In this document: one piece after another, positions 1-13,193 of the stretch
Numbering within the stretch: position 1 is the stretch's first letter
Layout: each line of letters starts with the position of its first letter
Source: Levyella massiliensis
Lineage (GTDB): Bacteria > Bacillota > Clostridia > Tissierellales > Peptoniphilaceae
Assembly: GCF_000308275.2 (NCBI RefSeq)
Contig: NZ_HG529490.1
Coordinates: 647,695 to 711,694 of the forward strand
Direction of reading: 5' to 3'
Length of the DNA: 64,000 nt
Position numbers and translations under genes: made by a program
The notes under the pieces: generated by a model
What the model was told of the DNA's origin: nothing
Database searches by the model: none
The model's input: the letters and a program-made list of their open reading frames with translations, nothing else

Positions 1-314
1 AAATGGTTGCAATATTGCTCTACATAGTGCAAAATACCGCGCAACACTGCAAATACAAGCATAACGCCAAGCAGGGTGGAAAATGATAGAGGTTGAAGAA
101 GTCCTGGCATTCCCTCCACGATATGCATCTCCATCAAGACGCGTAAAAGTGCTTGAGTCGCTAAAACCGTAAGAGATATCGCGCAGAGAAAACCCGCTAC
201 GCCAAAAAGAATGGCCAAAATCATGATGGGTAAAAGGGATCGAATCAGTCCGACCATGCGGCGCATTATCGCAATGCTGCTGCGTCGTTGAATAGCTTTA
301 TCTGTCTTCATCAT
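1..314 (-). CDS. ABC exporter, CydC-like half (5' part, runs off window)
   Basis: Only the first 104 or so codons are present; the gene continues past the left edge. It starts at ATG 314 (or ATG 311), overlapping the end of the upstream CydD-like gene by 17 nt, so translation is probably coupled. The N-terminus is short and basic (MMKTDKAIQRR). Two hydrophobic segments follow, LLPIMILAILFGVAGFLCAI and a second one with LGVMLVFAVLRGILHYVEQY. The latter is typical of the second transmembrane helix of CydC-type and related exporter halves, where an R-x-x-x-R/H-Y-x-E motif ends TM2. No nucleotide-binding domain is visible in the window. Pairing with the preceding full-length CydD-like half suggests a heterodimer; the substrate (thiol, heme or other) cannot be read from sequence. 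Confidence 0.75.
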   Translation of the reverse strand, partial: MMKTDKAIQRRSSIAIMRRMVGLIRSLLPIMILAILFGVAGFLCAISLTVLATQALLRVLMEMHIVEGMPGLLQPLSFSTLLGVMLVFAVLRGILHYVEQYCNH

Positions 315-2040
315 GATCCTCCCATCCGAATTGCTCCAAGCTCTCCTGCTTTTCATAGAGGTCGCGATATAGCCCTTTCTCTTGCATCAACGTCTCATGC
401 GTCCCCTGTTGTACGATTTCTCCCTTACTCAGCAAATAAATTTGTTCTGCCAAAACCACGTTGGCTAAGCGATGGGAAATTAACAGCACCGGTTTTTCCT
501 TGGCTAACGCATAAATTTGCTCCATGATGACGGCTTCACTTTCCATATCAATATTGCTGGTCACTTCATCAAAAATGTAGAATTTCGCAGGCTTCAGAAG
601 CGCACGTGCCAATACCAGCCGCTGCCTTTGCCCTCCGGAAAGATTGCTGCCGCGTTCAGCAATGGCCGCATCGAGACCGCCGGAAGATTGTATTTCATCT
701 TGCAGCTTCACCGCCGCAAGAGCCAGCTTCATATCTTCTTCAGTTGCCTTCAAATTTCCCATACGCAAATTCTGTTTTACTGTGCCCTTAAAAAGATGAC
801 TGTCCATGCCAACACGGACGATCGCCTGATGCAAGCTACGTGCTTTGATATTCTTAGCTTCTTGTCTGGAGAATAGTATGTTTCCCGCATAGTTGCGATA
901 CTTACCGGCTATAATATTTGCTAACGTTGATTTTCCGCAGCCGGATCCTCCGACGATCGCAACCAGCCCCTTCTCCGGGAAAGTCAAGCGAATGTCTTGC
1001 AGCACCGGCTCATTTTCATGATAGGAAAAGTACAGATTCTTGATGGAGAGCTGCGCCTGTCCGTCCGGAAATGGCTCGGTTCCGTCTTTTGGCTCTTCGA
1101 GCGATAAAATGCGCATAACCTTATCGGCGGCCGCCATCCCATTCATCGCAATATGAAAAAAAGAACCCAATAAGCGCAAAGGCAGGAAAAATTCGCTGGC
1201 AAGCAGTACCACGCTCAATGCAGTGGAAAAATTAATGGTATGATTCAAAAACGCATGGCAGGTAAAAAACATACCGATAGCAGCTCCGCCGTAAGCAACA
1301 AGATCCATCACGCTAATGGAATTAAGCTGCATCGTAAGAACACGCATTGTAGCGATACGAAAGTCTTCCGCTTCGACATCCATTTCCTCTGCTTTTTCGG
1401 CATCTGCGCCGTACACTTTCAAGGTGGTCATGCCTTCCAGATTCTCAAGAAAGTGATCTCCCATGCCGGTATAAGAATTCCAATATTTTGCCAAAATACG
1501 TTTGGCGATTTTCTGCACAGCAACGATAGAGAGCGGAATCAGAGGCACGCAGAGCAAAAGGACAACACTCGCTTTAAAATAACGAGGTGCCAGTACGGCA
1601 AAGAGCGTTATCGGTGCCAAAAGAGCATAAAAAAGCTGCGGTAAATAACCACCAAAATAGCTCTCCATCTGATCCACGCCCTCTGTGGAAAGCTGCACCA
1701 CTTCCGCCGTGGATACATGCGCCGTATAGGTTGGTCCCAGACGCAGCAATTTTTGAAATAACTTTTCGCGCAATACTTTTTTCACATCCGCACTGGCGCG
1801 ATAGGAAAAAAGGCTCTGGCCTTTTTGTCCGACATAGCGCAACACGACAGCGGTAGCAAACGCCGGAAGACACATAGCCAGAACGCTCGGATCCTGTTCG
1901 AAGAGCTGCGCTTGCAAAAAAGCAGACAGAGAAAACACCACGGCAATCTGCGATACTAACTGGAGCCACTGGCAGAGTATTGTCAGCGCAATATACCTCT
2001 TTGCCTGCGGCACCAAGGCCAGCAATTCTTTTTTTATCAT
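298..2040 (-). CDS. ABC transporter, CydD-like permease/ATPase half
   Basis: 580 residues: an N-terminal six-helix exporter domain and a C-terminal ATPase. Visible motifs are Walker A GGSGCGKST, signature NLSGGQRQR, Walker B FYIFDEVTSNID and the H-loop LLISHR. The stretch EGVDQMESYFGGYLPQLFYA closely resembles the CydD subfamily, which exports glutathione/cysteine and has been linked to heme handling. The start chosen is ATG 2040 because GGGAGGAGAA lies just upstream and it overlaps the DUF454 stop as ATGA; a longer open frame to 2220 lacks family similarity. It is followed by the CydC-like half with a 17-nt overlap. The position directly beyond the heme uptake operon suggests a heme or redox role, but that is inference. 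Confidence 0.85.
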   Translation of the reverse strand: MIKKELLALVPQAKRYIALTILCQWLQLVSQIAVVFSLSAFLQAQLFEQDPSVLAMCLPAFATAVVLRYVGQKGQSLFSYRASADVKKVLREKLFQKLLRLGPTYTAHVSTAEVVQLSTEGVDQMESYFGGYLPQLFYALLAPITLFAVLAPRYFKASVVLLLCVPLIPLSIVAVQKIAKRILAKYWNSYTGMGDHFLENLEGMTTLKVYGADAEKAEEMDVEAEDFRIATMRVLTMQLNSISVMDLVAYGGAAIGMFFTCHAFLNHTINFSTALSVVLLASEFFLPLRLLGSFFHIAMNGMAAADKVMRILSLEEPKDGTEPFPDGQAQLSIKNLYFSYHENEPVLQDIRLTFPEKGLVAIVGGSGCGKSTLANIIAGKYRNYAGNILFSRQEAKNIKARSLHQAIVRVGMDSHLFKGTVKQNLRMGNLKATEEDMKLALAAVKLQDEIQSSGGLDAAIAERGSNLSGGQRQRLVLARALLKPAKFYIFDEVTSNIDMESEAVIMEQIYALAKEKPVLLISHRLANVVLAEQIYLLSKGEIVQQGTHETLMQEKGLYRDLYEKQESLEQFGWEDHDEDR

Positions 2041-2438
2041 TTCTCCTCCCTTTTCAATTCTGACGATTTCAGTGTTTTGATGCGAAACAAAAAAACATAG
2101 ATGTGCGCCAACCAAACCACCGAAACGATGCCGCAAGGAATCCAGTGCTTTCTCATGAAAAAGATGGCCATGCCAAACAACACACTGACCAATAGCAGAA
2201 CGCGGGCTTTCATACCGCATGTCATTCCGCCCCGCTTTTTATACGTACCGACGGTACTCGCATATAAAGAAGTCTGCAAAAACCAGTCATGAAGTCGATC
2301 CGAGCTTCGTGCAAAGCAAAAGACCGTTGCCAAATAAAACGGAACGGTTGGCAATAACGGCAGGAAAATACCGATAGTGCCCAAAACGAGCGTTACCATT
2401 CCTAAAAGCAGCCAAAAAAGGCGAAATCGTTTCATCAT
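2037..2438 (-). CDS. DUF454 (YbaN-like) inner membrane protein
   Basis: 133 residues with three to four hydrophobic helices. The N-terminal stretch LGTIGIFLPLLPTVPFYLA followed by CFARSS.RLHDWFL is the hallmark of the DUF454/YbaN family, small membrane proteins of unknown biochemical function. A TTTTAGGAGGGAATG ribosome site precedes the ATG pair at 2438/2435. The gene ends in a 4-nt ATGA overlap with the CydD-like gene, so the two are an operon. DUF454 genes often lie near heme or iron transport genes, and here it lies between a heme import operon and a CydDC-like exporter. A role in heme homeostasis is a contextual guess. Confidence 0.85.
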   Translation of the reverse strand: MMKRFRLFWLLLGMVTLVLGTIGIFLPLLPTVPFYLATVFCFARSSDRLHDWFLQTSLYASTVGTYKKRGGMTCGMKARVLLLVSVLFGMAIFFMRKHWIPCGIVSVVWLAHIYVFLFRIKTLKSSELKREEK

Positions 2439-2559: not shown

Positions 2560-5500
2560 TTACGCTTTCTTTCTGTTCTTGAAGTAATACATCAGTCCCA
2601 AGATACCGATACCGCCGATGAGAACCGCTGCTGCAAGAGTGATATGGGAGGAATCCGAAGTATCAACCGGTGCCGATTGCGAACTTTCTTTCCCTCCCGC
2701 AATCTGTGCGCTATGCGTTTCTTGAATCAACGTGGCGTTTGACCAGTCGAGAACAAGATACGCGTCCTGTGCGCCGGAGCCCGGTTGGATTTTATCATAC
2801 GTTTTTGCTCCATTCTTCAGAGCATCCATCGCATCCACCCACACACGCACTTTAATCCGACTTTCTTTTCCACTGCGCAACAGGCTGAACTGATAAGGGA
2901 ACTTCTGCAGTTTTCCGATCAGGTTCTTGTCGTTGTGCCATTTCATGACTTGTGCCGCCACCGGGTTGCCTCCGACATAATGGAAGAAATTCCAGACGTG
3001 GCCGTACATATTCATAAACTCCATGCCGTTGATGGAAAGAAGCACTTGCGTTTTGCCGTTTGATTGACAAATGACACGCGCCGTTTTTACCAGCGCCGGA
3101 TTGCCCATCGATGGACGATTTTCGTACGCATGCATAAGTTTTACGGGCACATTATAAATCTTGCTTGTAATGTTGCTTTGCCCCTTAGTGTTGCCCTGAG
3201 GTTTTGACTGCGTGCCATGGGAGGTTCCCGAACCGCGCTGCTCCGTATTGCCTTGGTTTGGCGTCGGGTTCGGATTCGGTTTCGGCTGATCCGGATTCGG
3301 ATTCGGCGTCGGCTGAACCGGATTCGGATTCGGCTTTGGCTGATCCGGGTTCGGATTCGGCTTTGGTTGATCCGGGTTCGGATTCGGCGTCGGTGCCGGT
3401 TGCGTCGATTCGTGTTTTACCGCCTTGCTCCAATCAAACTCCAAATAGGCTTTCTGTGCTCCGGAGCCCTTAACAATCTTGTCATAGGTCTTAGCGCCAT
3501 TGTTCAGCGCATCCATTGCGTCTACCCAAACCTTTACGTGAATGCGGCTCTTTGTTTTCAGATTCGGCAGGTTCTTCTGCGCTTCTCCCGTACAATTTAA
3601 GCGGAACTTGGACGGGAATTTACGCATCTTGTTTTCTAAATCCTTGTCCTTTTTCTCTTCCAAGACAACCGCCGGTGTCCATTCTTCCGCGCCGCATGGT
3701 TCGTTGCGATAGTAGAGATTCCATAGGTGACCGTACATGCCCATAAACGCCATGCCGGTAAATTCCAATTCATAGGATAATCCATCTTTTGTTACAAATA
3801 CTTTCGCCATATGCACTAAAGCCGGATTTCCCATGGAATGCTTCTTCTCATAGGCATGCATCAGCTCCACAGGAACCTCATAATAGATTTCTGTCCGCTG
3901 CGGCTTTGAATCACCTGGGTTTGGCGTCGGGTTCGGATTCGGCGTCGGCTGATCCGGGTTCGGATTCGGCGTCGGCTGATCCGGGTTCGGATTCGGCTTT
4001 GGTTGATCCGGGTTCGGATTCGGTTTTGGTTGATCCGGGTTCGGCGCCGGTTGCGCTTCTTTTACCTCAAAGGCCTGTTCGACCATTCCTGCTGCATAAC
4101 CATTGCCTTCTTTGAAGGCTACCGCCAAGGTGTGCTTACCGGCCGCCAAAGAGTTCAAATACGACTCTTTTAAAGTAATAATGGTACTGCCTTCGGTGAC
4201 CGAATAGTTTTCCTTCGCAAGCTCATTACCGTCCACTTTGACACTCTTTAAGTTCATCATGGGGGCTATAATACGGCAAGTAAAGGATTTTGTTTCGTTC
4301 TTCTTCCATACCTTCGGTGCTTGACCCTTAGAATCTAACATTGGCTTCTGTTTCGGTGTTGAAGGATTCGGGGCCGGCTGATCCGGGTTCGGATTCGGCT
4401 TTGGCTGATCCGGGTTCGGATTCGGCTTTGGTTGATCCGGGTTCGGATTCGGCGTCGGTGCAGGTTGCGTCGATTCGTGTTTTACCGCCTTGCTCCAATC
4501 AAACTCCAAATAGGCTTTCTGTGCTCCGGAGCCCTTAACAATCTTGTCATAGGTCTTAGCGCCATTGTTCAGCGCATCCATTGCGTCTACCCAAACCTTT
4601 ACGTGAATGCGGCTCTTTGTTTTCAGATTCGGCAGGTTCTTCTGCGCTTCTCCCGTACAATTTAAGCGGAACTTGGACGGGAATTTACGCATCTTGTTTT
4701 CTAAATCCTTGTCCTTTTTCTCTTCCAAGACAACCGCCGGTGTCCATTCTTCCGCGCCGCATGGTTCGTTGCGATAGTAGAGATTCCATAGGTGACCGTA
4801 CATGCCCATAAACGCCATGCCGGTAAATTCCAATTCATAGGATAATCCATCTTTTGTTACAAATACTTTCGCCATATGCACTAAAGCCGGATTTCCCATG
4901 GAATGCTTCTTCTCATAGGCATGCATCAGCTCCACAGGAACCTCATAATAGATTTCTGTACGCTGCGGCTTTGAATCACCTGGGTTTGGCGTCGGGTTCG
5001 GATTCGGCGTCGGCTGATCCGGGTTCGGATTCGGCTTTGGTTGATCCGGGTTCGGATTCGGCTTTGGTTGATCCGGGTTCGGCGCCGGTTGAGCTTCTTT
5101 TACCTCAAAGGTCTGTTCGACCGTTCCTGCTGCGAAACCGTTGCCTTCTTTGAAGGCTACCGTCAAGGTATGCTTACCGGCGGCTAAAGAGTTCAGATAT
5201 GACTCTTTTAAAGTAATGATGGTACTGCCTTCGGTGACCGAATAGTTTTCCTTCGCAAGCTCATTACCGTCCACTTTGACACTCTTTAAGTTCATCATGG
5301 GGGCTATAATACGGCAAGTAAAGGATTTTGTTTCGTTCTTCTTCCACACCTTCGGTGCTTGATCCTTAGAATCTACCATTGGCATCTGTTTTGGTGCAGC
5401 TTTTTTTAAACCGTCAACAGCAGCTTTTAGGGCTTTCACCTGCTGATGCAACTCTTCTGTCGTAGCATCTTGCTTCTTTAATAATGCTTCTGCTGCCTCT

Positions 5501-7779
5501 TTTTGCATCGCCAATGGTTTCCAGGACTCCGGCGTATAGTCCGATTCCTTTAAAGCGCGGATTTTCGCCAATTGTTCTTGTAGCGCTTTTAACGCTTGGG
5601 CTTTTTGCGGATCTTCCTTTTTCTGCAAAGCGGCAATGGCATTCTTTAACGCATTTTCTGCGTTCTTAATCTCTGCATCGTTTGCCTTTTCTTTGTAGTA
5701 GGTCTTCGACGCATCCTTTACCGCCTTTTGCAGAGCGTCCCAGCTCTCCTTTGTATAGTCCTTAGCATTTAATTGTTTCGCCTGATCCAACAGATCTTTG
5801 AGATCCGCCTTCTTGGCATCGACTAAGTTGTGTCGGGCCGCTTTAAAATCCTGCAGCGCGTTAAACAGTGTGTTCGCATCCTGAAGTTCACCGGAAGCTA
5901 AGCTGTCCAGAGTATCCAACGCCTTTTTGTACGGCGCATAGCTCTTTGCGCTGTATTTCGCTGCATCACGAGATGCATCATGCACATACTGTTTTATCCC
6001 GGCTTGCAACAGCACCGCTTCTAAATCGGTTCCTGCTGCTAATTTTTCCGCCTTGCTCCAATCCGGTGTTAATTTCGCATTCTGTTCGCCGGCGCCGTGT
6101 TTGATCTTGTCATAAGAGGAAGTATCCGCTGATTGTAAAGCGTCCATGGCGTCTACCCAGACGCAAACCGGTACATAGGGTTTTGTTACGTCACAGTCCG
6201 TCAGCTTGAGAATTTCAGGAAATTCCATTAATTCGTCCAAAAGGTTGCTATCTTTGCCCATGCGAATCACCGGCACAGGTTCTTTTTTGCCTTTAAAGCT
6301 ATACGGATTGGCGCCGATTCCATCACTTCTCCACTGGAACAACTTATAAAGATGACCATACATTCCCAAGAAGTGTAAACCGCGCATTTGCATATACAGC
6401 GTGGCTTTACCGTTTTTCACATCCATGGTTGCCGTCTGAATTACAGCACCGTTACCCATGGAAAGTCTTTCTCCATCGTACGCGTGCTTCAGTTTCAATG
6501 GCACCTTGTATAGGCCGTCTGCTAAGCCGGCAGGCTGCGTCTTCTGCAAAGCGGCAATGGCATTCTTTAACGCATTTTCTGCGTTTTTAATCTCTGCCTC
6601 GTTCGCCATGGCTTTGTTGAAGGTCTTCGATGCATCCTTTACCGCCTTTTGCAGGGCGTCCCAGCTCTCCTTTGTATAGTCCTTCGCATTTAATTGTTTC
6701 GCCTGATCCAATAGATCTTTAAGATCCGCCTTCTTGGCATCGACTAAGTTGTGTCTGGCCGCTTTAAAATCCTGCAGCGCGTTAAACAGTGTGTTCGCAT
6801 CCTGAAGTTCACCGGAAGCTAAGCTGTCCAGAGTATCCAGCGCCTTTTTGTACGGCGCATAGCTCTTTGCGCTGTATTTCGCTGCATCCCGAGATGCATC
6901 ATGCACATACTGTTTTATTCCAGATTGCAACAGTACCGCTTCTAAATCGGTTCCTGCTGCTAATTCTTCCGCCTTACTCCAATCCGGTGTTAATTTCGCA
7001 CTCTGTTCGCCGGCGCCCTGTCTGATCTGGTCATAAGAGGTGGCACCCCCGGATTGTATGGCGTCCATAGCGTCTACCCAGACACAAACCGGTACATAGG
7101 GTTTTGTCACGTCACAGTCCGTGAGCTTGAGAATTTCAGGAAATTCCATTAATTCGCCCATAAGGCTGCTGTCTTTGCCCGTGCGAATCACTTGCACAGG
7201 TTCTTTTTTGCCTTGAAAGCTATATGGATCGCCGCCGTTTCCGTCACTTCTCCACTGGAACAACTTATAAAGATGACCATACATTCCCATGAAGTGTAAA
7301 CCGCGCATTTGCATATACAGCGTAGCTTTACCGTTTTTCACATCCATGGTTGCCGTCTGAATTACAGCACCGTTGCCCATGGAAAGTCTTTCTCCATCGT
7401 AAGCGTGCTTCAGTTTCAATGGCACTTTGTATAGGCCGTCTGCTAAGCCGGCAGGCTGTGGATTCTGCAAAGCAGAAACGGAATTCTTTAACGCATTTCC
7501 TGCGCTCTCAATCTCTGCATCGTTCGCCTCCACTTCATTCTCTGTTGCAGACTCCGGATTTTCACTATCCTCAGAATTTCTCTTGAAAACGACAGATGTT
7601 CCTTCGGATGGCGAAGTTTGTTCTTCGGTTGCCGTCTGCGCCGTTCCCTCTCCCTCCGCGGCAAAACTTACCGTCGGTACGGAGAAGACCGTCGTTACGC
7701 AAAGAAGAAGGGCCATTAAAAAGCTCAGTCCCTTTCTCGTCCACGTTTGGATATTTATGCCTTTGCGCTTATTATCCAT
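2560..7779 (-). CDS. Large repetitive NEAT-domain cell-surface protein
   Basis: 1739 residues. Residues 1-41 are a signal peptide (RKGLSFLMALLLCVTTVFS...SFAA). Five NEAT-type domains lie near 115-270, 422-577, 938-1090, 1293-1445 and 1540-1690; all carry HAY..(K/R)..SMGN, MGMYGHL(W/Y) or a close variant, and VWVDAMDA(I/L). Domains 1 and 2 are each followed by helical segments including a FIVAR-like block (LNAKDYTKESWDALQKAV); a third FIVAR-like block is near 750. Domains 3 and 4 are preceded by an Ig-like module (VTEGSTIITLKESYLNSLAA). Linkers are PNPNPDQP(K/T) repeats. The C-terminus is a hydrophobic helix ending YYFKNRKKA, with no LPXTG before it. NEAT proteins bind or relay heme at the cell surface. 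Here the usual YxxxY heme-ligand tyrosine is absent. Start has AAAGGAG seven bases upstream. Last gene of the heme operon. Confidence 0.92.
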   Translation of the reverse strand: MDNKRKGINIQTWTRKGLSFLMALLLCVTTVFSVPTVSFAAEGEGTAQTATEEQTSPSEGTSVVFKRNSEDSENPESATENEVEANDAEIESAGNALKNSVSALQNPQPAGLADGLYKVPLKLKHAYDGERLSMGNGAVIQTATMDVKNGKATLYMQMRGLHFMGMYGHLYKLFQWRSDGNGGDPYSFQGKKEPVQVIRTGKDSSLMGELMEFPEILKLTDCDVTKPYVPVCVWVDAMDAIQSGGATSYDQIRQGAGEQSAKLTPDWSKAEELAAGTDLEAVLLQSGIKQYVHDASRDAAKYSAKSYAPYKKALDTLDSLASGELQDANTLFNALQDFKAARHNLVDAKKADLKDLLDQAKQLNAKDYTKESWDALQKAVKDASKTFNKAMANEAEIKNAENALKNAIAALQKTQPAGLADGLYKVPLKLKHAYDGERLSMGNGAVIQTATMDVKNGKATLYMQMRGLHFLGMYGHLYKLFQWRSDGIGANPYSFKGKKEPVPVIRMGKDSNLLDELMEFPEILKLTDCDVTKPYVPVCVWVDAMDALQSADTSSYDKIKHGAGEQNAKLTPDWSKAEKLAAGTDLEAVLLQAGIKQYVHDASRDAAKYSAKSYAPYKKALDTLDSLASGELQDANTLFNALQDFKAARHNLVDAKKADLKDLLDQAKQLNAKDYTKESWDALQKAVKDASKTYYKEKANDAEIKNAENALKNAIAALQKKEDPQKAQALKALQEQLAKIRALKESDYTPESWKPLAMQKEAAEALLKKQDATTEELHQQVKALKAAVDGLKKAAPKQMPMVDSKDQAPKVWKKNETKSFTCRIIAPMMNLKSVKVDGNELAKENYSVTEGSTIITLKESYLNSLAAGKHTLTVAFKEGNGFAAGTVEQTFEVKEAQPAPNPDQPKPNPNPDQPKPNPNPDQPTPNPNPTPNPGDSKPQRTEIYYEVPVELMHAYEKKHSMGNPALVHMAKVFVTKDGLSYELEFTGMAFMGMYGHLWNLYYRNEPCGAEEWTPAVVLEEKKDKDLENKMRKFPSKFRLNCTGEAQKNLPNLKTKSRIHVKVWVDAMDALNNGAKTYDKIVKGSGAQKAYLEFDWSKAVKHESTQPAPTPNPNPDQPKPNPNPDQPKPNPNPDQPAPNPSTPKQKPMLDSKGQAPKVWKKNETKSFTCRIIAPMMNLKSVKVDGNELAKENYSVTEGSTIITLKESYLNSLAAGKHTLAVAFKEGNGYAAGMVEQAFEVKEAQPAPNPDQPKPNPNPDQPKPNPNPDQPTPNPNPDQPTPNPNPTPNPGDSKPQRTEIYYEVPVELMHAYEKKHSMGNPALVHMAKVFVTKDGLSYELEFTGMAFMGMYGHLWNLYYRNEPCGAEEWTPAVVLEEKKDKDLENKMRKFPSKFRLNCTGEAQKNLPNLKTKSRIHVKVWVDAMDALNNGAKTYDKIVKGSGAQKAYLEFDWSKAVKHESTQPAPTPNPNPDQPKPNPNPDQPKPNPNPVQPTPNPNPDQPKPNPNPTPNQGNTEQRGSGTSHGTQSKPQGNTKGQSNITSKIYNVPVKLMHAYENRPSMGNPALVKTARVICQSNGKTQVLLSINGMEFMNMYGHVWNFFHYVGGNPVAAQVMKWHNDKNLIGKLQKFPYQFSLLRSGKESRIKVRVWVDAMDALKNGAKTYDKIQPGSGAQDAYLVLDWSNATLIQETHSAQIAGGKESSQSAPVDTSDSSHITLAAAVLIGGIGILGLMYYFKNRKKA
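3380..5380 (-). repeat. Near-identical 1065-bp intragenic direct duplication
   Basis: Two copies (about 3380-4345 and 4445-5380) encode linker, NEAT domain, linker and Ig-like module. They are offset by 1065 bp over the NEAT part. The offset falls to 1038 bp after the linker because copy 1 has one extra 27-bp PNPNPDQPT unit. Only scattered single-base differences are visible, so the duplication is recent or kept alike by recombination. Confidence 0.9.
5620..7461 (-). repeat. 921-bp tandem duplication (NEAT + helical/FIVAR unit)
   Basis: Two adjacent units, 5620-6540 and 6541-7461, exactly 921 bp (307 codons) each. Each encodes GLADGLYKVPL-type NEAT followed by a helical spacer and a FIVAR-like block. 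Differences are few and mostly in the NEAT loop (for example DGNGGDPYSFQG against DGIGANPYSFKG). Confidence 0.9.
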
Positions 7780-7824: not shown

Positions 7825-8610
7825 TCAGACCGTCTTTACCAGATCGACCTGACCTGTATGAACTATCTCAAGGTCTATGTCATAAACCTCACGTAAAATG
7901 CTAGGTTGTAAGAATTCTTGTACCGCATCGTTAAAGAGCAGTTCTCCCGCTTTCAAGGCTACGATGCGGTCACTGAAGGCCGTGGCCTGATTGATATCAT
8001 GCAGCACCATGATGATGCTCATGTCCTGTTCGCGATTGAGCCAACGCACCAGTTTCAGAATTTCAATTTGAAAACGAATATCCAAAAAATTTGTCGGTTC
8101 ATCTAAGAAGAGAATCTTCGTTTCCTGTGCCAAAGACATGGCTATCCAGACGCGTTGCAGTTGCCCGTACGAAAGTGTGCCAATCGGGCGTTTTCTCAGA
8201 TCCTCTACACCTGTCCATTGCAGGACGCGATCGATAACTTCCCAGTCCTTCGCGGACAGACGAGAAGTAAAGAGTGATTTATGGGGAGTTCGTCCATAGG
8301 AAACCAATTCCTCAACCAGCAAATCCGAAGGTGCATGGTTTTGTTGATGCACCATGCCCACCTGTTTCGCAAATTCTCGCTTGTTGAAGGTGTCCAACGA
8401 ACGATTTTCCAATACTATGGCTCCGTTGCTCGGGTGCAGATTTTTCGCTAAAAGATTCAGTAAGCTGCTCTTACCGCATCCGTTTTGTCCAACTATGGCG
8501 ATCACCTCACCTTTCGGCAGTGCCAAAGAAAAATCCTTGAAAAGCAGAGGCGCTTCCGGATAGGCAAAATCCATATGCTGCACTTTAAAAAGAAGATCCT
8601 TATTTCCCAT
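7825..8610 (-). CDS. Heme/iron-siderophore ABC transporter ATP-binding protein (HmuV/FepC type)
   Basis: About 261 residues. Motifs: Walker A GQNGCGKSS, signature LSYGQLQRVWIAM, Walker B ILFLDEPTNFLD and H-loop VLHDINQA, the set typical of the FepC/FhuC/HmuV family that powers FecCD-type permeases. ATG 8610 is annotated. An in-frame TTG at 8616 has better spacing to the GGGGG ribosome site and may be the true start. It overlaps the permease end by about 11 nt and is followed 45 nt later by the NEAT surface gene. It should energise heme (or ferric siderophore) import together with the fused binding protein and permease of this operon. Confidence 0.92.
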   Translation of the reverse strand: MGNKDLLFKVQHMDFAYPEAPLLFKDFSLALPKGEVIAIVGQNGCGKSSLLNLLAKNLHPSNGAIVLENRSLDTFNKREFAKQVGMVHQQNHAPSDLLVEELVSYGRTPHKSLFTSRLSAKDWEVIDRVLQWTGVEDLRKRPIGTLSYGQLQRVWIAMSLAQETKILFLDEPTNFLDIRFQIEILKLVRWLNREQDMSIIMVLHDINQATAFSDRIVALKAGELLFNDAVQEFLQPSILREVYDIDLEIVHTGQVDLVKTV

Positions 8611-9634
8611 AGCCAATGCGATCCCCCTTTCGAAAGAGCAGAATGAAAACCGGGCCGCCAATTACCATCATGAAGATGGATGCCGGCACTTCGACCGGGG
8701 CAAACACTGTTCTTCCCAGCGTATCGAAAAACAAAAAGATAAATGCCCCCAGCAGAGAAGCAAAGGGCAGCAATCTGCGATGTGCATTTCCTACGAGCGT
8801 CCGCGCCAAATGAGGCACAATCAGAGCCAAGAAGGAAATAATCCCGACAATAGAAGAAGCGATCGAAGCCAAAAATACGGCGATTATGGATACAATAAAA
8901 CGTATTCTGCCAACACGTACTCCCAAGCCGGATACGGTTTTTTCCTCTAACAACAAGAGATCACACAAGCGCGCGCAAAGAAATGCCGCAACAAGGCCAG
9001 CCGGAATATAGGTCAACAGAAAGCCAACGTCCTGCCAGCCCTTCATATTGATATTCACAAGGCTTAACCCAGGTGCTGCCCCCATCAATTGCCCCGTAAA
9101 GTACTTCAGACCTGATACCAAGCCTAAAAACATTGCATTGATCGCTATGCCCGTTAAGATGATGCGAAGCGGTTTCAAACCATCTCTAACCGATAAAACG
9201 TAGACGAGTCCGAAGCCTAACGCACCGCCTAAAAACGAAAACAGCGGCTTGGCAAAGAATAGCTGCGGTAACAGCATGCCGACCAGCAAATCCATAAATT
9301 GAGCGCCACCCGAAACGCCGATAATGCCCGGGTCCGCCAACGGATTCTTAAGGCATGCCTGTAAAAGACATCCGGAGCAAGCTAAGGCCGCACCTGCCAA
9401 GGCAGAGATCAAAATACGCGGAAAGCGAAGATCGATGATGGCATTTACGAGATCGTCCTTGCCATTGAAAAGACCGGTAAGGAACTGCACGACTCCCACT
9501 TTCAGGCTTCCAAAAATGGCTGAAAACACCAAAAGGGCAACAAACGCAACCGACAATACCAGCAGTTTGATAAAAAAAGCGCTGCGTCTACCATCGTGTC
9601 GAGAAGTCGCATCAATGGCTGCTGTCGTTTTCAT
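8600..9634 (-). CDS. FecCD-family heme/iron ABC permease
   Basis: 344 residues with about ten hydrophobic helices. Family landmarks include FPRILISALAGAALACSGCLLQ, NPLADPGIIGVSGGA, LTGIAINAM and FLALIVPHLARTLVG; the last contains the cytoplasmic loop contacted by the ATPase. ATG 9634 is chosen (AAAGGCG upstream). It overlaps the end of the NEAT/binding-protein fusion by 23 nt, so translation is probably coupled. Normal length for the BtuC/FecD/HmuU family. Substrate inferred to be heme from the adjacent NEAT proteins. Confidence 0.93.
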   Translation of the reverse strand: MKTTAAIDATSRHDGRRSAFFIKLLVLSVAFVALLVFSAIFGSLKVGVVQFLTGLFNGKDDLVNAIIDLRFPRILISALAGAALACSGCLLQACLKNPLADPGIIGVSGGAQFMDLLVGMLLPQLFFAKPLFSFLGGALGFGLVYVLSVRDGLKPLRIILTGIAINAMFLGLVSGLKYFTGQLMGAAPGLSLVNINMKGWQDVGFLLTYIPAGLVAAFLCARLCDLLLLEEKTVSGLGVRVGRIRFIVSIIAVFLASIASSIVGIISFLALIVPHLARTLVGNAHRRLLPFASLLGAFIFLFFDTLGRTVFAPVEVPASIFMMVIGGPVFILLFRKGDRIGYGK

Positions 9635-12600
9635 GCGAAACGCCTTTCTCGTTATATTGAGTATAAATTTTCCGCAATTGTTCCAGCCCCTTTGGATACT
9701 CAAAGTTCGCGCTCATACCAAAGCTCCCCGCGTCCAAGTCATAGACGTTGCCGTTTTTTACCGCACGAAAATTCTTCCAGATGGTATTTTCCGCAAACTC
9801 TTTGCGAAACATTTCATTCACGACTTCTGGCATGGCGTGAACGGTTCGCAAGATAATATCCGGGTCCCGCGCCAACATTTCTTCCGTGCTTAAATTCATG
9901 AATTCGGATTTACCATCGCCTTCAAAAATATTTTCGGCGCCGGACATTGCTAACAGGCTTCCCACGTAGGAACGTGGGGTTGCCACAACATACGATCCGG
10001 GTAATCCCATCAAAAGCAAAACGCGAGGCTTTTTCATGCCCTTTGTGGCTTCCTGGTACTTGGCTAAAAAATCATGGTATTCTTTCAGCAATTTCTGCAC
10101 ATTTTCGCTTTTTCCAAAGCGCTTACCGATTGTTTCCACGGAGCGATAGAGTCCTTCCACGCTGCGAAGATCCACAAAGGAGATGGGCAGATGGTGCTTT
10201 TCAAAGCCTTCCTTCAACCAGTCCTGCAATGTATCCGGGCAATAGACTACCGTGGGTTTTAGCGAATAGATGACTTCCATGTTCGGATTCATGGGCATGC
10301 CAATCTGCACAGTATTATCGTAGCGCGGCGGCATGCGATGCAATTTCGTTGACGGACGGCCGACTAAGTGAACGTCCAGGCGATTCATCATTTCGCATAA
10401 AGCAACCGAGGTGCAAACTACGCGTTCCTGCCCTTCGGGTTCTGATTTTTTATCTTTATTGACGGCATTCAGGTCGGTTTCGTCCTTTAAATACTCTTCC
10501 GGTACTTTAATGCCTTTTCCGATTTCCGGAAGCTGACGTTCCGAATAAACCGGACCTTTGCCGGCGCAGGCGCTAAGAGAAGTCGCCAGCAATAGAAGCA
10601 GAAAAGCGCTCAGGATCTGTTTTTTAGTTTTGTTTTTTTTTACGATCCAAACTGCCGCAATAATGGCAACTACGGCCACGCCCCCGCCAATCAAAAGCAT
10701 CTTTTCTTGTTGCTTTTTCTTTAAATAATAGGTGTCATCTTGGACGAAGTAGTCATTGAAGTCCTTATTGCCTTTCTGGAGTTCTCCCGTCGAAATAACA
10801 AAATACTTCACAGCGCGCCCCATGGGATTAACAAACATTTCAATGGAGCAGTTGAATTTCTCAGCCGGTACCTCAAAGCGGAAATCGCTATAATTGATCC
10901 CATCGACCCCTTGCATTTGACTTTTGGTGATTTGATATGGCGTTTTTTGGTATGTACCGTCCTTTTGTTGAACTTTGAAAAACGGGCCGTCCTTTTCGCT
11001 AAAGTTGATGAAGTTCATGAGATATAAGCGAATCGTCGCAAACATCTTGCCATCTAAGCGTTTTTCGATAAGAGCGTCGGCATATTTTTCTTCTCCCGGC
11101 GCCGGTTTATGAAACACGCTGTTAATACCGCCAGCAGGATCGGACGGTGTAACAACGCCATCCACCATTCCTTCGCCGATGGCCGCGTTTTGAGTGCCGC
11201 CATCCTCCGTCTTCCCCGTTTCAGGGTTGAGATAGGAGCCGAAAATTCGCGTAATATACGCTCCATTTTCAGGTGCTGCCGCAGCAGCATGACCGGTTAC
11301 AGGTAGAAAGAGCAGTTGTGTGCTTAGTCCGACGATAAGTAACAGTGCAAGCGCAGCTACACTCTTTTTGCCTTCTTTTTTCTGTCGCATAATCAGTGCG
11401 ATTACAACAAGTAAGAATACAATGGACGCTCCAAGAAATGCCCATGCCGGAATAGCAGCAGATTGCGGTGTAGCAACAGCGTAATAGCCGTCGGTTGCCG
11501 TAACAATTTCCATTTTTCCTTCTACATTCTTTGCTTGCAGAGGATTTGGCGTGCCGTCTTCCGCAAAATTTATAATTTGGCATTTTTCCGCTTTCGCATT
11601 CTTCGGCAGCGGGAACTGCATGCGAATCTGGCGCACTGGCTTCAACGGACTACCCTTCTCGTCTACTAAATCGATTTTGTACAGTTTTAAGCTGAGGCCC
11701 TGCTTTTTGCCAAAATCCGCCGCCTTTTGGAATACCGCACCGTCTTTTACTTCCTCTACTTTTAATACGACGCCGCTTGCCAACACACGCTCATCAGCCA
11801 AGAGACGGATGCCGGATGCTTTGTCCGTTTGATCCACCGACGGAGTGTAGACATCGCCATAAGAGGTTTCTGTGCTGCCTTCAAGAACGAATGTGTCGCT
11901 CACTTTCTTCAGCGTATCCCAATAGAAGCGAAACCGTGCATCCACCGGTTTATTTCCCATGGCGGCAACATTCGGATCAACCATGCAGTGCATGAATTCT
12001 TCACCCTTATAGAGAGGAAAGCTAAATTTGCTGGCCTTCCCACCCTCCAGTTTTTTCTCCACCGCCTCTGCAAAGGCTAACTTGCCCTGTTCATCCGGAT
12101 ATTGAAAGGTAATCAGAGAGGCAACAATCCCGCTGACACCCATGGGATGTACAGTGAATTGGCATTCGACTTTTCCGTTTTTGACTTTTAATAACGCCAG
12201 ATGATTCATGGAGCCGTTCCCCATGGAGGGGCGATCCTCATGCATATGCCATAAATCGATCTTTACGGTGTAATTGCCATCTTTTAACTTGGAAAGATCA
12301 TAGTTTTTGCCAATCGTTGTATGTTTTTCTTCCTGAGGCGCTTTCGCATCTGGTGCTGCTTGGGCGATCTTTGCTCCTGCCGGCACAGCCGGAGCCTTGG
12401 AATAATCAAAGACCAAACGGGCGTTTTGCTCTCCCTTGCCGTCACCACCGGCGATACTGTCCATAGCATCCACACGCACACGCACATAAAATTCTTTTTC
12501 TCGCAGCAATGAGCGATGAATTACAATCTTCGAGGGGAAAACCATCTGCTTCCCATCCAACCCTACGTCTTTTTCCTCTGTTATCACCTTGGTGTCCTTG

Positions 12601-12938
12601 CAAGTAGCGTTGCGTTCGGGAGCCGGTTCTCCATCCCAAGCATATAGCTTCAATAAATGGCCATGCATGTTCATAAAGTCTAAAGCCGTAAATTGCAGTT
12701 CAATATCTGCTCCATCTTTGGTTTCCGTAATAACAGCAGTTTGACGCATCGCCGGATTCCCCATGGATGGTTGACTCTTTTCATAGGCGTGCATCAATTT
12801 AACGGGTACTTCGAAAGTATTCTTTTCCTCCGCAGCAAAAGTTTTTTCCGTTCCTATAGAGACAATAAATAACGCTAAAGCCATCACCATTGCTACGGTT
12901 TTCCAAAAAATACGTGGCTTATGTTTTTCCAAAACCAT
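9612..12938 (-). CDS. NEAT / membrane / substrate-binding-protein fusion heme receptor
   Basis: 1108 residues in one uninterrupted frame. Order: signal peptide 1-36; NEAT domain 43-180 (HAYEKSQPSMGN, MNMHGHL, VRVDAMDS); NEAT-like domain 222-345 (HMHEDRPSMGN); beta-rich region 350-490; TM helix 496-517 then RQKKEGKK. A second signal-like helix 526-552 ends GHAAAAA. An extracytoplasmic beta-rich domain 556-735 follows, then TM helix 747-765 then KKNKTKK. A lipoprotein-type signal ends LSAC at Cys791, and an IsdE/HmuT-like periplasmic-binding fold fills 792-1108 (ERVVCTSVALCEMMNRL, LKPTVVYCPDTL, ATPRSYVGSLLAMSGAENIF). Each module is usually a separate secreted protein. Start ATG 12938 has GGGAGGAGAAT. 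First gene of the operon, upstream of permease and ATPase. It should capture heme and hand it to the permease. Confidence 0.88.
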   Translation of the reverse strand: MVLEKHKPRIFWKTVAMVMALALFIVSIGTEKTFAAEEKNTFEVPVKLMHAYEKSQPSMGNPAMRQTAVITETKDGADIELQFTALDFMNMHGHLLKLYAWDGEPAPERNATCKDTKVITEEKDVGLDGKQMVFPSKIVIHRSLLREKEFYVRVRVDAMDSIAGGDGKGEQNARLVFDYSKAPAVPAGAKIAQAAPDAKAPQEEKHTTIGKNYDLSKLKDGNYTVKIDLWHMHEDRPSMGNGSMNHLALLKVKNGKVECQFTVHPMGVSGIVASLITFQYPDEQGKLAFAEAVEKKLEGGKASKFSFPLYKGEEFMHCMVDPNVAAMGNKPVDARFRFYWDTLKKVSDTFVLEGSTETSYGDVYTPSVDQTDKASGIRLLADERVLASGVVLKVEEVKDGAVFQKAADFGKKQGLSLKLYKIDLVDEKGSPLKPVRQIRMQFPLPKNAKAEKCQIINFAEDGTPNPLQAKNVEGKMEIVTATDGYYAVATPQSAAIPAWAFLGASIVFLLVVIALIMRQKKEGKKSVAALALLLIVGLSTQLLFLPVTGHAAAAAPENGAYITRIFGSYLNPETGKTEDGGTQNAAIGEGMVDGVVTPSDPAGGINSVFHKPAPGEEKYADALIEKRLDGKMFATIRLYLMNFINFSEKDGPFFKVQQKDGTYQKTPYQITKSQMQGVDGINYSDFRFEVPAEKFNCSIEMFVNPMGRAVKYFVISTGELQKGNKDFNDYFVQDDTYYLKKKQQEKMLLIGGGVAVVAIIAAVWIVKKNKTKKQILSAFLLLLLATSLSACAGKGPVYSERQLPEIGKGIKVPEEYLKDETDLNAVNKDKKSEPEGQERVVCTSVALCEMMNRLDVHLVGRPSTKLHRMPPRYDNTVQIGMPMNPNMEVIYSLKPTVVYCPDTLQDWLKEGFEKHHLPISFVDLRSVEGLYRSVETIGKRFGKSENVQKLLKEYHDFLAKYQEATKGMKKPRVLLLMGLPGSYVVATPRSYVGSLLAMSGAENIFEGDGKSEFMNLSTEEMLARDPDIILRTVHAMPEVVNEMFRKEFAENTIWKNFRAVKNGNVYDLDAGSFGMSANFEYPKGLEQLRKIYTQYNEKGVSHENDSSH
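10633..10641 (-). other. A9 homopolymer at the module B / binding-protein junction
   Basis: On the coding strand GTA is followed by a run giving nine consecutive A before CAAAACTAAAAAACAG. Reading one extra A leads to TAA after five codons; one fewer A leads to TGA after nine. The fusion frame therefore depends on the exact run length, which makes it a candidate slippage site or a sequencing risk point. Confidence 0.7.
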
Positions 12939-12996
12939 ATTCTCCTCCCTGCAAGAACACATCTTTTATGAATGTGTCCAAAAGTTATGTAATATT

Positions 12997-13050
12997 CTGA
13001 CAGTTAGTTATGGCTAACTATAAAATAGGTTAGCTATAACTAACTGTCAG
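12997..13050 (-). promoter_or_regulatory. 22-bp inverted repeat with two GTTAG-N6-CTAAC operators over a promoter
   Basis: Arms 12997-13018 and 13029-13050 are inverted copies with one mismatch. Each arm itself holds GTTAG-N6-CTAAC. On the minus strand CTGACA (13050-13045), a 17-base gap and TATTTT (13027-13022) form a plausible promoter. One operator fills the spacer and the other covers the start site, a classic repressor arrangement. TTAG...CTAA half sites resemble DtxR/IdeR boxes, so iron control is inferred. Confidence 0.65.
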
Positions 13051-13090
13051 AGAGGTGCCCCTCGAAAGGCGAAAGGGTGTCATCTTTTCT

Positions 13091-13106
13091 GTTAGTGTTT
13101 GCTAAC
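13091..13106 (-). promoter_or_regulatory. Third GTTAG-N6-CTAAC palindrome
   Basis: GTTAGTGTTTGCTAAC, extended to TGTTAG...CTAACA. It lies about 35 bases inside the transcript predicted from the upstream promoter at 13143-13171 and 41 bp before the promoter-linked pair. Confidence 0.6.
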
Positions 13107-13171: not shown

Positions 13172-13193
13172 GATAAGGAGGAATCGACTTTCC

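Follow-up and report, generated by a model that had tools for sequence, protein, structure and literature searches.

A NEAT-Shp-IsdE heme relay encoded in one open reading frame with an internal lipobox

RESULTS

One frame encodes three predicted extracytoplasmic modules

We analyzed 64,000 nucleotides of Levyella massiliensis DNA (contig NZ_HG529490.1, positions 647,695 to 711,694), hereafter called the window, in which a single gene encodes a putative heme receptor, heme shuttle and heme-binding lipoprotein in one chain. The frame is open on the minus strand from 9612 to 12962 and comprises 1116 codons from ATG 12962. The ribosome-site scores were -3.0 kcal/mol for this ATG, -6.8 kcal/mol for ATG 12938 and -10.4 kcal/mol for a TTG two codons on; because of these scores, ATG 12938 or a position just after it is the likelier start. 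From ATG 12938, the gene (9612..12938) encodes a precursor of 1108 amino acids (aa), to which all residue numbers refer; the same frame is present in relatives. A first-pass annotation of this DNA had described a single frame encoding three modules, which we confirmed, and its coordinates and its Cys791 agree with a start at ATG 12938.

Hydrophobicity analysis (Kyte-Doolittle scale, 19-residue window) revealed peaks at residues 10 to 28, 499 to 517, 527 to 545, 748 to 766 and 775 to 793, the last one ending in LSAC. The first peak belongs to an N-terminal Sec signal peptide (residues 1 to 36; 12831..12938; this and all following protein features are on the minus strand), which is probably cleaved near TFAA/EEK. 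NEAT domain 1 (residues ~38 to 187; 12378..12827) was not picked out by Pfam, but it is similar to the NEAT repeats of the large protein encoded nearby, and its AlphaFold2 model matches NEAT domains with VIA-align Z scores of 9.2 to 10.9 (single-domain rows, model residues 4 to 159). NEAT domain 2 (residues 217 to 338; 11925..12290) scored 55.2 bits against a Pfam cut-off of 32.8 (PF05031), and its fold matches heme-bound NEAT domains with a Z score of 15.4. Furthermore, module 1 contains a third globular domain (residues 364 to 491; 11466..11849), which was missed in the first-pass annotation. In a model of moderate confidence (mean predicted local distance difference test score [pLDDT] of 71.6 and predicted template modeling score of 0.39 for module 1), this domain resembles the ankyrin ZU5 domain (Z 9.5; root mean square deviation 3.3 over 116 residues; 9% identity); a ZU5 row was absent from the Pfam list at an expectation value (E) of 0.1.

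Module 1 ends with transmembrane (TM) helix 1 (residues 499 to 517; 11388..11444), followed by the loop RQKKEGKKS (residues 518 to 526; 11361..11387) and an internal Sec signal-like helix ending in GHAAAAA (residues 527 to 555; 11274..11360). Module 2 is a Shp-type heme-binding domain (10752..11267), which scored 97.2 bits against a Pfam cut-off of 26.4 (PF11545). Its closest solved structure is Shp (PDB 2q7a; E 3.1e-7), its model (mean pLDDT 70.3) consists mostly of strands with one long helix at the end, and, judged by its domain, it probably acts like Shp. TM helix 2 (residues 748 to 766; 10641..10697) and the loop KKNKTKKQ (residues 767 to 774; 10617..10640) lead to an internal lipoprotein signal with the lipobox LSAC at Cys791 (10566..10616), which precedes the IsdE heme-binding domain of module 3 (residues 836 to 1092; 9663..10433). 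Module 3 scored 328.7 bits against the IsdE equivalog cut-off of 298.65 (TIGR03659), the match beginning at residue 774. Its closest solved structures are Lmo2184 (5joq), which we take to be a Listeria protein, and Staphylococcus aureus IsdE (2q8p; E 2.7e-58). In the alignment to 2q8p, the axial Met and His ligands, presumably at IsdE positions 78 and 229, are kept. Met and His are the types of axial heme ligand given for IsdE in a previous report (PMC7815599).

According to the positive-inside rule, basic loops are cytosolic. Since both loops between a TM helix and the following signal are basic, they are predicted to be cytosolic, which would place all three globular parts outside the membrane. 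The hydrophobic segments were found where the first-pass annotation had put them, and our data support its three extracytoplasmic modules, two internal export signals, two short basic loops and lipobox at Cys791. The proposed role in heme uptake also held and can be sharpened, as module 2 is of the Shp type and module 3 is IsdE.

The fused gene is part of a horizontally transferred cassette

The fused gene was found in four genomes: that of the window, two others of the same genus (G001 and G004, the latter being Murdochiella sp. Marseille-P8839) and one of another genus in the same family (G047, Kallipyga massiliensis ph2). The genera with fused genes are Murdochiella and Kallipyga. The window's protein is 95% identical to the other three copies. 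Stops or frameshifts that would split the modules, which the first-pass annotation had suggested looking for, are absent from the window's own copy and those of G001 and G047, in which the full frame is intact. The G004 copy has a single in-frame TAA at codon 486, directly ahead of TM helix 1. This stop (L008 / L035) is known from one assembly, both collections showing the same contig, and it may be a natural split, decay or a sequencing error. If it is real, module 1 would be secreted unanchored, and production of Shp-IsdE would depend on ATG 517, a start without a ribosome site.

Searching 130 genomes of the family with the Shp part, we detected 4 fused copies, 21 separate frames (315 to 344 aa) and 105 genomes with no match, a search that would miss a fusion with a very different Shp. 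IsdE exceeded its cut-off in 35 of 249 genomes of the order, namely in the four fused copies (frames of 1117, 1117, 1117 and 622 aa) and in 31 genomes with frames of 294 to 379 aa. Among 398 genomes of the phylum, Shp was over the cut-off in six, the five others having frames of 306 to 350 aa with no further fusion, and one weaker Shp match lay in a 4407-aa frame. In the same set, IsdE was detected at E 1e-50 in 17 genomes, 16 of them others with frames of 301 to 444 aa, and no other fusion was present among the eight with IsdE over the cut-off. The 21 matches in plasmid records included none covering more than 80% of the query. The fusion is not named in the titles and abstract beginnings of the literature found.

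The identity of the fused proteins was compared with that of PheT, which in relation to the window's genome is 75% for G001, 76% for G003 and G004, 63% for G002 and 56% for G047. The fused protein had no match in G003 or in G002 (87% complete). The DNA shared with the other copies extends from ~1397 to 1412 bases before the window to position 13173 (G001, G004) or 13019 (G047), and in the stretches compared, similarity ends at both edges, the surroundings being unrelated. This delimits a cassette of ~14.5 kb with sharp edges (window ~-1400 to 13173; G000:C1 ~646297 to 660867), pieces of which show ~87 to 98% DNA identity with G001, G004 and G047. It contains two ATP-binding cassette (ABC) exporter-like frames, a large NEAT protein, an ATPase, a permease and the fused gene. 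Because the fused protein is 95% identical while PheT is only 56 to 76% identical, and because similarity stops at both sides, sequence comparison indicates that this heme cassette has moved horizontally between species and genera. Therefore, the four copies are not independent witnesses.

The fused gene lost the start signals and spacers of its split relatives

In the same family, NEAT, Shp, IsdE, permease and ATPase genes occur in this order in 11 of 13 split loci. Of the exceptions, L075 lacks a NEAT gene immediately ahead of Shp, and no Shp match was obtained in L076; the latter was left out, and junctions were examined in the other 12. The longest frames overlap, in another frame, in 10 of 11 NEAT-Shp and in all 12 Shp-IsdE pairs, and the L064 NEAT-Shp pair shows no overlap when the best-scored start is used. 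At most split junctions, the downstream gene starts within the stretch encoding the upstream protein's basic tail. Each of the 12 split Shp genes and each of the 12 split IsdE genes has a Shine-Dalgarno-like site of -5.6 to -10.9 kcal/mol at the best start, defined as the best-scored in-frame start in the first 40 codons, a definition that favours the split genes. In the fused gene, the scores of the in-frame starts at either junction range from 0 to -1.5 kcal/mol, and there is no ATG, GTG or TTG between TM helix 2 and the lipobox helix. The Shp module has a signal-like helix and a TM helix, without an own start bearing a ribosome site. Internal initiation of Shp or IsdE was rejected as a candidate, as ATG 517, ATG 747, TTG 749, GTG 754 and TTG 783 all lack a ribosome site.

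The fused protein also differs from its split relatives in the spacers preceding its TM helices. The distance from the third domain to TM helix 1 is 10 aa, compared with 91 to 121 aa in 10 split NEAT proteins (that of L071 lies outside this alignment), and the distance from the Shp MGRxV motif to TM helix 2 is 38 aa, compared with 123 to 142 aa in 12 split Shp proteins. Thus, ~81 to 111 aa are missing before TM helix 1 and 85 to 104 aa before TM helix 2. Aligning fused with split proteins over their full length put the modules out of register (mean column identity 18%), and this alignment was set aside.

The ratio of nonsynonymous to synonymous substitution rates (dN/dS) of the whole frame was 0.07 to 0.10 in the six pairwise comparisons among the four copies. 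By part, it was 0.02 to 0.06 for IsdE, 0.00 to 0.05 for Shp and 0.08 to 0.12 for module 1; the signal 2 region gave higher and noisier values (0.00 to 0.36). Because of this strong purifying selection and the loss of ribosome sites and of the IsdE start, IsdE is almost certainly made by reading through, and since it is hardly made in any other way, translation of the fused frame is under selection. Single-chain translation is thus very probable, and the comparison with split loci supports that genes for a NEAT receptor, Shp and IsdE, once separate, merged into one frame. We conclude that the heme-relay gene fusion is real, under selection and horizontally spread.

Neighbouring genes and candidate regulatory sites

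Directly downstream, a FecCD permease gene (8600..9634, minus strand; PF01032, 252 bits in a search from 9673) starts at ATG 9634, as read from the sequence, and shares 23 bases with the 3' end of the fused gene. It is followed by a FecE-type ABC ATPase gene (7825..8613, minus strand; PF00005, 121 bits), whose best NCBIfam match, FecE, is below the cut-off. The next gene (2560..7779, minus strand) encodes a large multi-NEAT surface protein, which exceeds the cut-offs of PF05031 and PF07550. This 1739-aa protein has near-identical internal repeats, FIVAR, CBM_X2 and Shr-like hemoglobin-interacting domains. In G047 and in G004, its match is divided between two frames (458 and 840 aa in the former, 1207 and 642 aa in the latter). 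At the left end of the cassette lie two adjoining ABC exporter-like frames, -1389..356 and 298..2220, of which the second was matched by Pfam and the first was judged by place and sequence. ABC-like frames also precede the NEAT gene in many of the split relatives.

Upstream of the operon, we found three inverted repeats, GTTAG-N6-CTAAC (13003..13106), with zero to two mismatches to a pattern derived from the sites themselves. We take them to look like DtxR-type iron-repressor operators, and they are perhaps iron-repressor sites. The DNA similarity to G047 stops at 13019, just beyond the first repeat.

Elsewhere in the genome, two signal peptidase I domains lie in one open frame (G000:C1:891505-892545, 602 aa), as they do in G047 (G047:C1:902635-903708, 477 aa); in G001 and G004, the two domains are in different frames. 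We read this pair as a second merger of neighbouring membrane-protein genes.

DISCUSSION

The locus is best read as a relay of the Shr-Shp-Hts/Isd type in one merged frame, whose precursor is then cut; we give this overall reading a probability of roughly 0.5. One ribosome would make one precursor, which would cross the membrane repeatedly: signal 1, then NEAT1, NEAT2 and the ZU5-like domain outside, TM helix 1, the 9-residue loop inside and signal 2, followed by Shp outside, TM helix 2, the 8-residue loop inside, the lipobox signal and IsdE outside. Signal peptidase I would cleave after signal 2, and Lgt and signal peptidase II (LspA) would process Cys791. The products would arise 1:1:1 beside the permease and the ATPase: a NEAT receptor and Shp, each held by a membrane anchor, and IsdE as a lipoprotein. 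Heme would pass from NEAT to Shp, to IsdE and on to the permease.

Several observations speak for cutting. GHAAAAA, with the features of a Sec c-region, and the lipobox LSAC are kept in all four copies, the IsdE family match includes the lipobox, and the families of LspA, Lgt and signal peptidase I are present in all four genomes with the fused gene. The cytochrome b/c1 precursor FbcH of Bradyrhizobium offers a precedent for cleavage at an internal signal. The first-pass annotation had offered a lasting fused relay and cutting into three proteins as alternatives. Both stand, with cutting favoured: given a single chain, cleavage at both internal signals is somewhat the better supported fate, and what the tethered chain leaves over falls to mixed or other fates.

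Three points weigh against the cut relay. The four copies share a recent, transferred ancestor, so that the conserved cleavage motifs carry little weight. The stop in G004 makes the need for fusing module 1 doubtful, or else marks a decaying copy. Finally, the near-lost TM spacers suit a tethered relay no less well than they suit free proteins.

Such a tethered relay is a serious alternative, to which we give a clearly lower probability. The chain would stay whole, with four TM helices after removal of signal 1; the internal signals would only be anchors, and the tether would replace the lost spacers. In addition to the shortening before both TM helices relative to split proteins, the inside loops of merely 9 and 8 residues are typical of hairpins, and the linker from the lipobox Cys to the IsdE domain is long (48 aa, compared with 15 to 44 aa in the 10 of 12 relatives in which it was measurable). 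Against it, signal 2 and the lipobox retain their cleavage features in all four copies, and the families of the processing enzymes listed above are present.

A dosage switch at the Shp/IsdE junction, which is compatible with either fate of the chain, appears unlikely. The mRNA carries a run of nine A residues there (A9; 10633..10641, minus strand), a possible slippage site. If RNA polymerase or the ribosome slipped on it, gain or loss of one A would soon end the chain as NEAT-Shp extended by a short basic tail, and IsdE would be made only from unslipped mRNA, as in dnaX. The run is the only A/T run of at least nine in the window and is present in all four copies. Ten distinct A9 runs exist in the 1.71-Mb genome, and none of the other nine lies past the first ATG of a stop-to-stop frame of at least 200 aa; one sits in a 373-aa frame but ahead of the first ATG, four are in frames of 127 to 173 aa, and four are in no frame of 100 aa. 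With 8, 10 or 11 A residues, the frame ends after 10, 6 or 11 residues from V766, the shifted tails including VKKKQN and VKKTKLKNRS. According to an earlier study, selection against slippage is visible at run length nine in many bacterial genomes, and at the A9 run of Thermus thermophilus dnaX, 50% of the product is shorter (PMC1088944).

The same run can also be explained without a switch. Special DNA conservation at the junction was rejected, since the run lies in an invariant stretch of 50 bases that is only tied for the sixth longest in the gene. Shifted stops are as near at 2.6% of the gene's codon positions, lysine-rich loops favour A runs and TAA, and no strong RNA structure was detected near the run (z scores -0.10, 0.08 and -1.52); the run may be a mere fusion scar. 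Less probable still is the combination of slippage and cutting, a cellular bacterial polyprotein from which signal peptidases I (at the Sec signal) and II (at the lipobox) would release three surface proteins while slippage on A9 sets the IsdE dosage.

It is also rather improbable, a little more so than slippage by itself, that the fusion is recent and of little consequence, a chance merger that is tolerated and drifting apart again. The overlap of the genes in most relatives means that small indels can merge the frames, the G004 stop would fit renewed separation, and the fused form was seen only in one transferred cassette. However, the low whole-frame dN/dS in all six pairs, the dependence of IsdE on read-through after loss of the ribosome sites and its start, and the remodelled spacers argue against it. 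That an assembly or sequencing artefact joined three genes, as the indel-prone A9 run at one junction might suggest, is refuted by the further copies, since both junctions are crossed in frame in four genomes and a shift in the run would truncate the frame instead of lengthening it.

In Streptococcus pyogenes, the proteins of the Shr-Shp-HtsABC system come from separate genes. That system likewise combines a NEAT receptor, Shp, a heme lipoprotein, a permease and an ATPase, and Shr-type hemoglobin-interacting domains are found here in the large neighbouring protein; here, however, three of the proteins share one frame, and the family score identifies the lipoprotein as IsdE. Heme transfer from Shp to HtsA is cited in PMC7815599. 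The likeness to the Isd system of S. aureus and to Lmo2184 lies in module 3, which scores above the IsdE equivalog cut-off and has 2q8p and 5joq among its PDB matches. S. aureus IsdE is a separate lipoprotein that receives heme from the NEAT protein IsdC, according to the same source (PMC7815599), whereas here the Shp module occupies the place of IsdC. The split NEAT-Shp-IsdE-permease-ATPase operons of the family share gene order, related modules and the places of TM helices and signals with the fused locus, but their genes are separate, have starts and ribosome sites of their own, mostly overlap out of frame with one another and encode long TM spacers. Outside heme uptake, the FbcH cytochrome b/c1 precursor of Bradyrhizobium is one chain with an internal signal, which signal peptidase cuts into two proteins. 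The chain described here differs from FbcH, in which two proteins arise by signal peptidase I only, in that it also has an internal lipobox. Over TM helix 2, the loop and the lipobox, it weakly matches the NCBIfam tail family NF058595, "lipo-invert" (22.8 and 18.3 bits, both below the cut-off of 37), a name absent from the literature found for that and related terms.

In summary, the locus encodes the known Shr-Shp-Hts/Isd heme relay in fused form, with an unusual internal lipobox and a potentially slippage-prone junction. The fusion illustrates how overlapping genes can merge into one. Known heme relays consist of separate proteins that must meet; here, receptor, shuttle and binding protein are locked 1:1:1 with little spacer. 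If the chain stays whole, the locus would directly test whether a tether is enough for heme to be handed on. A chain that is cut would be a rare bacterial polyprotein: ordinary signal peptidases would mature it, and its internal lipobox may escape signal-peptide predictors built for protein N termini.

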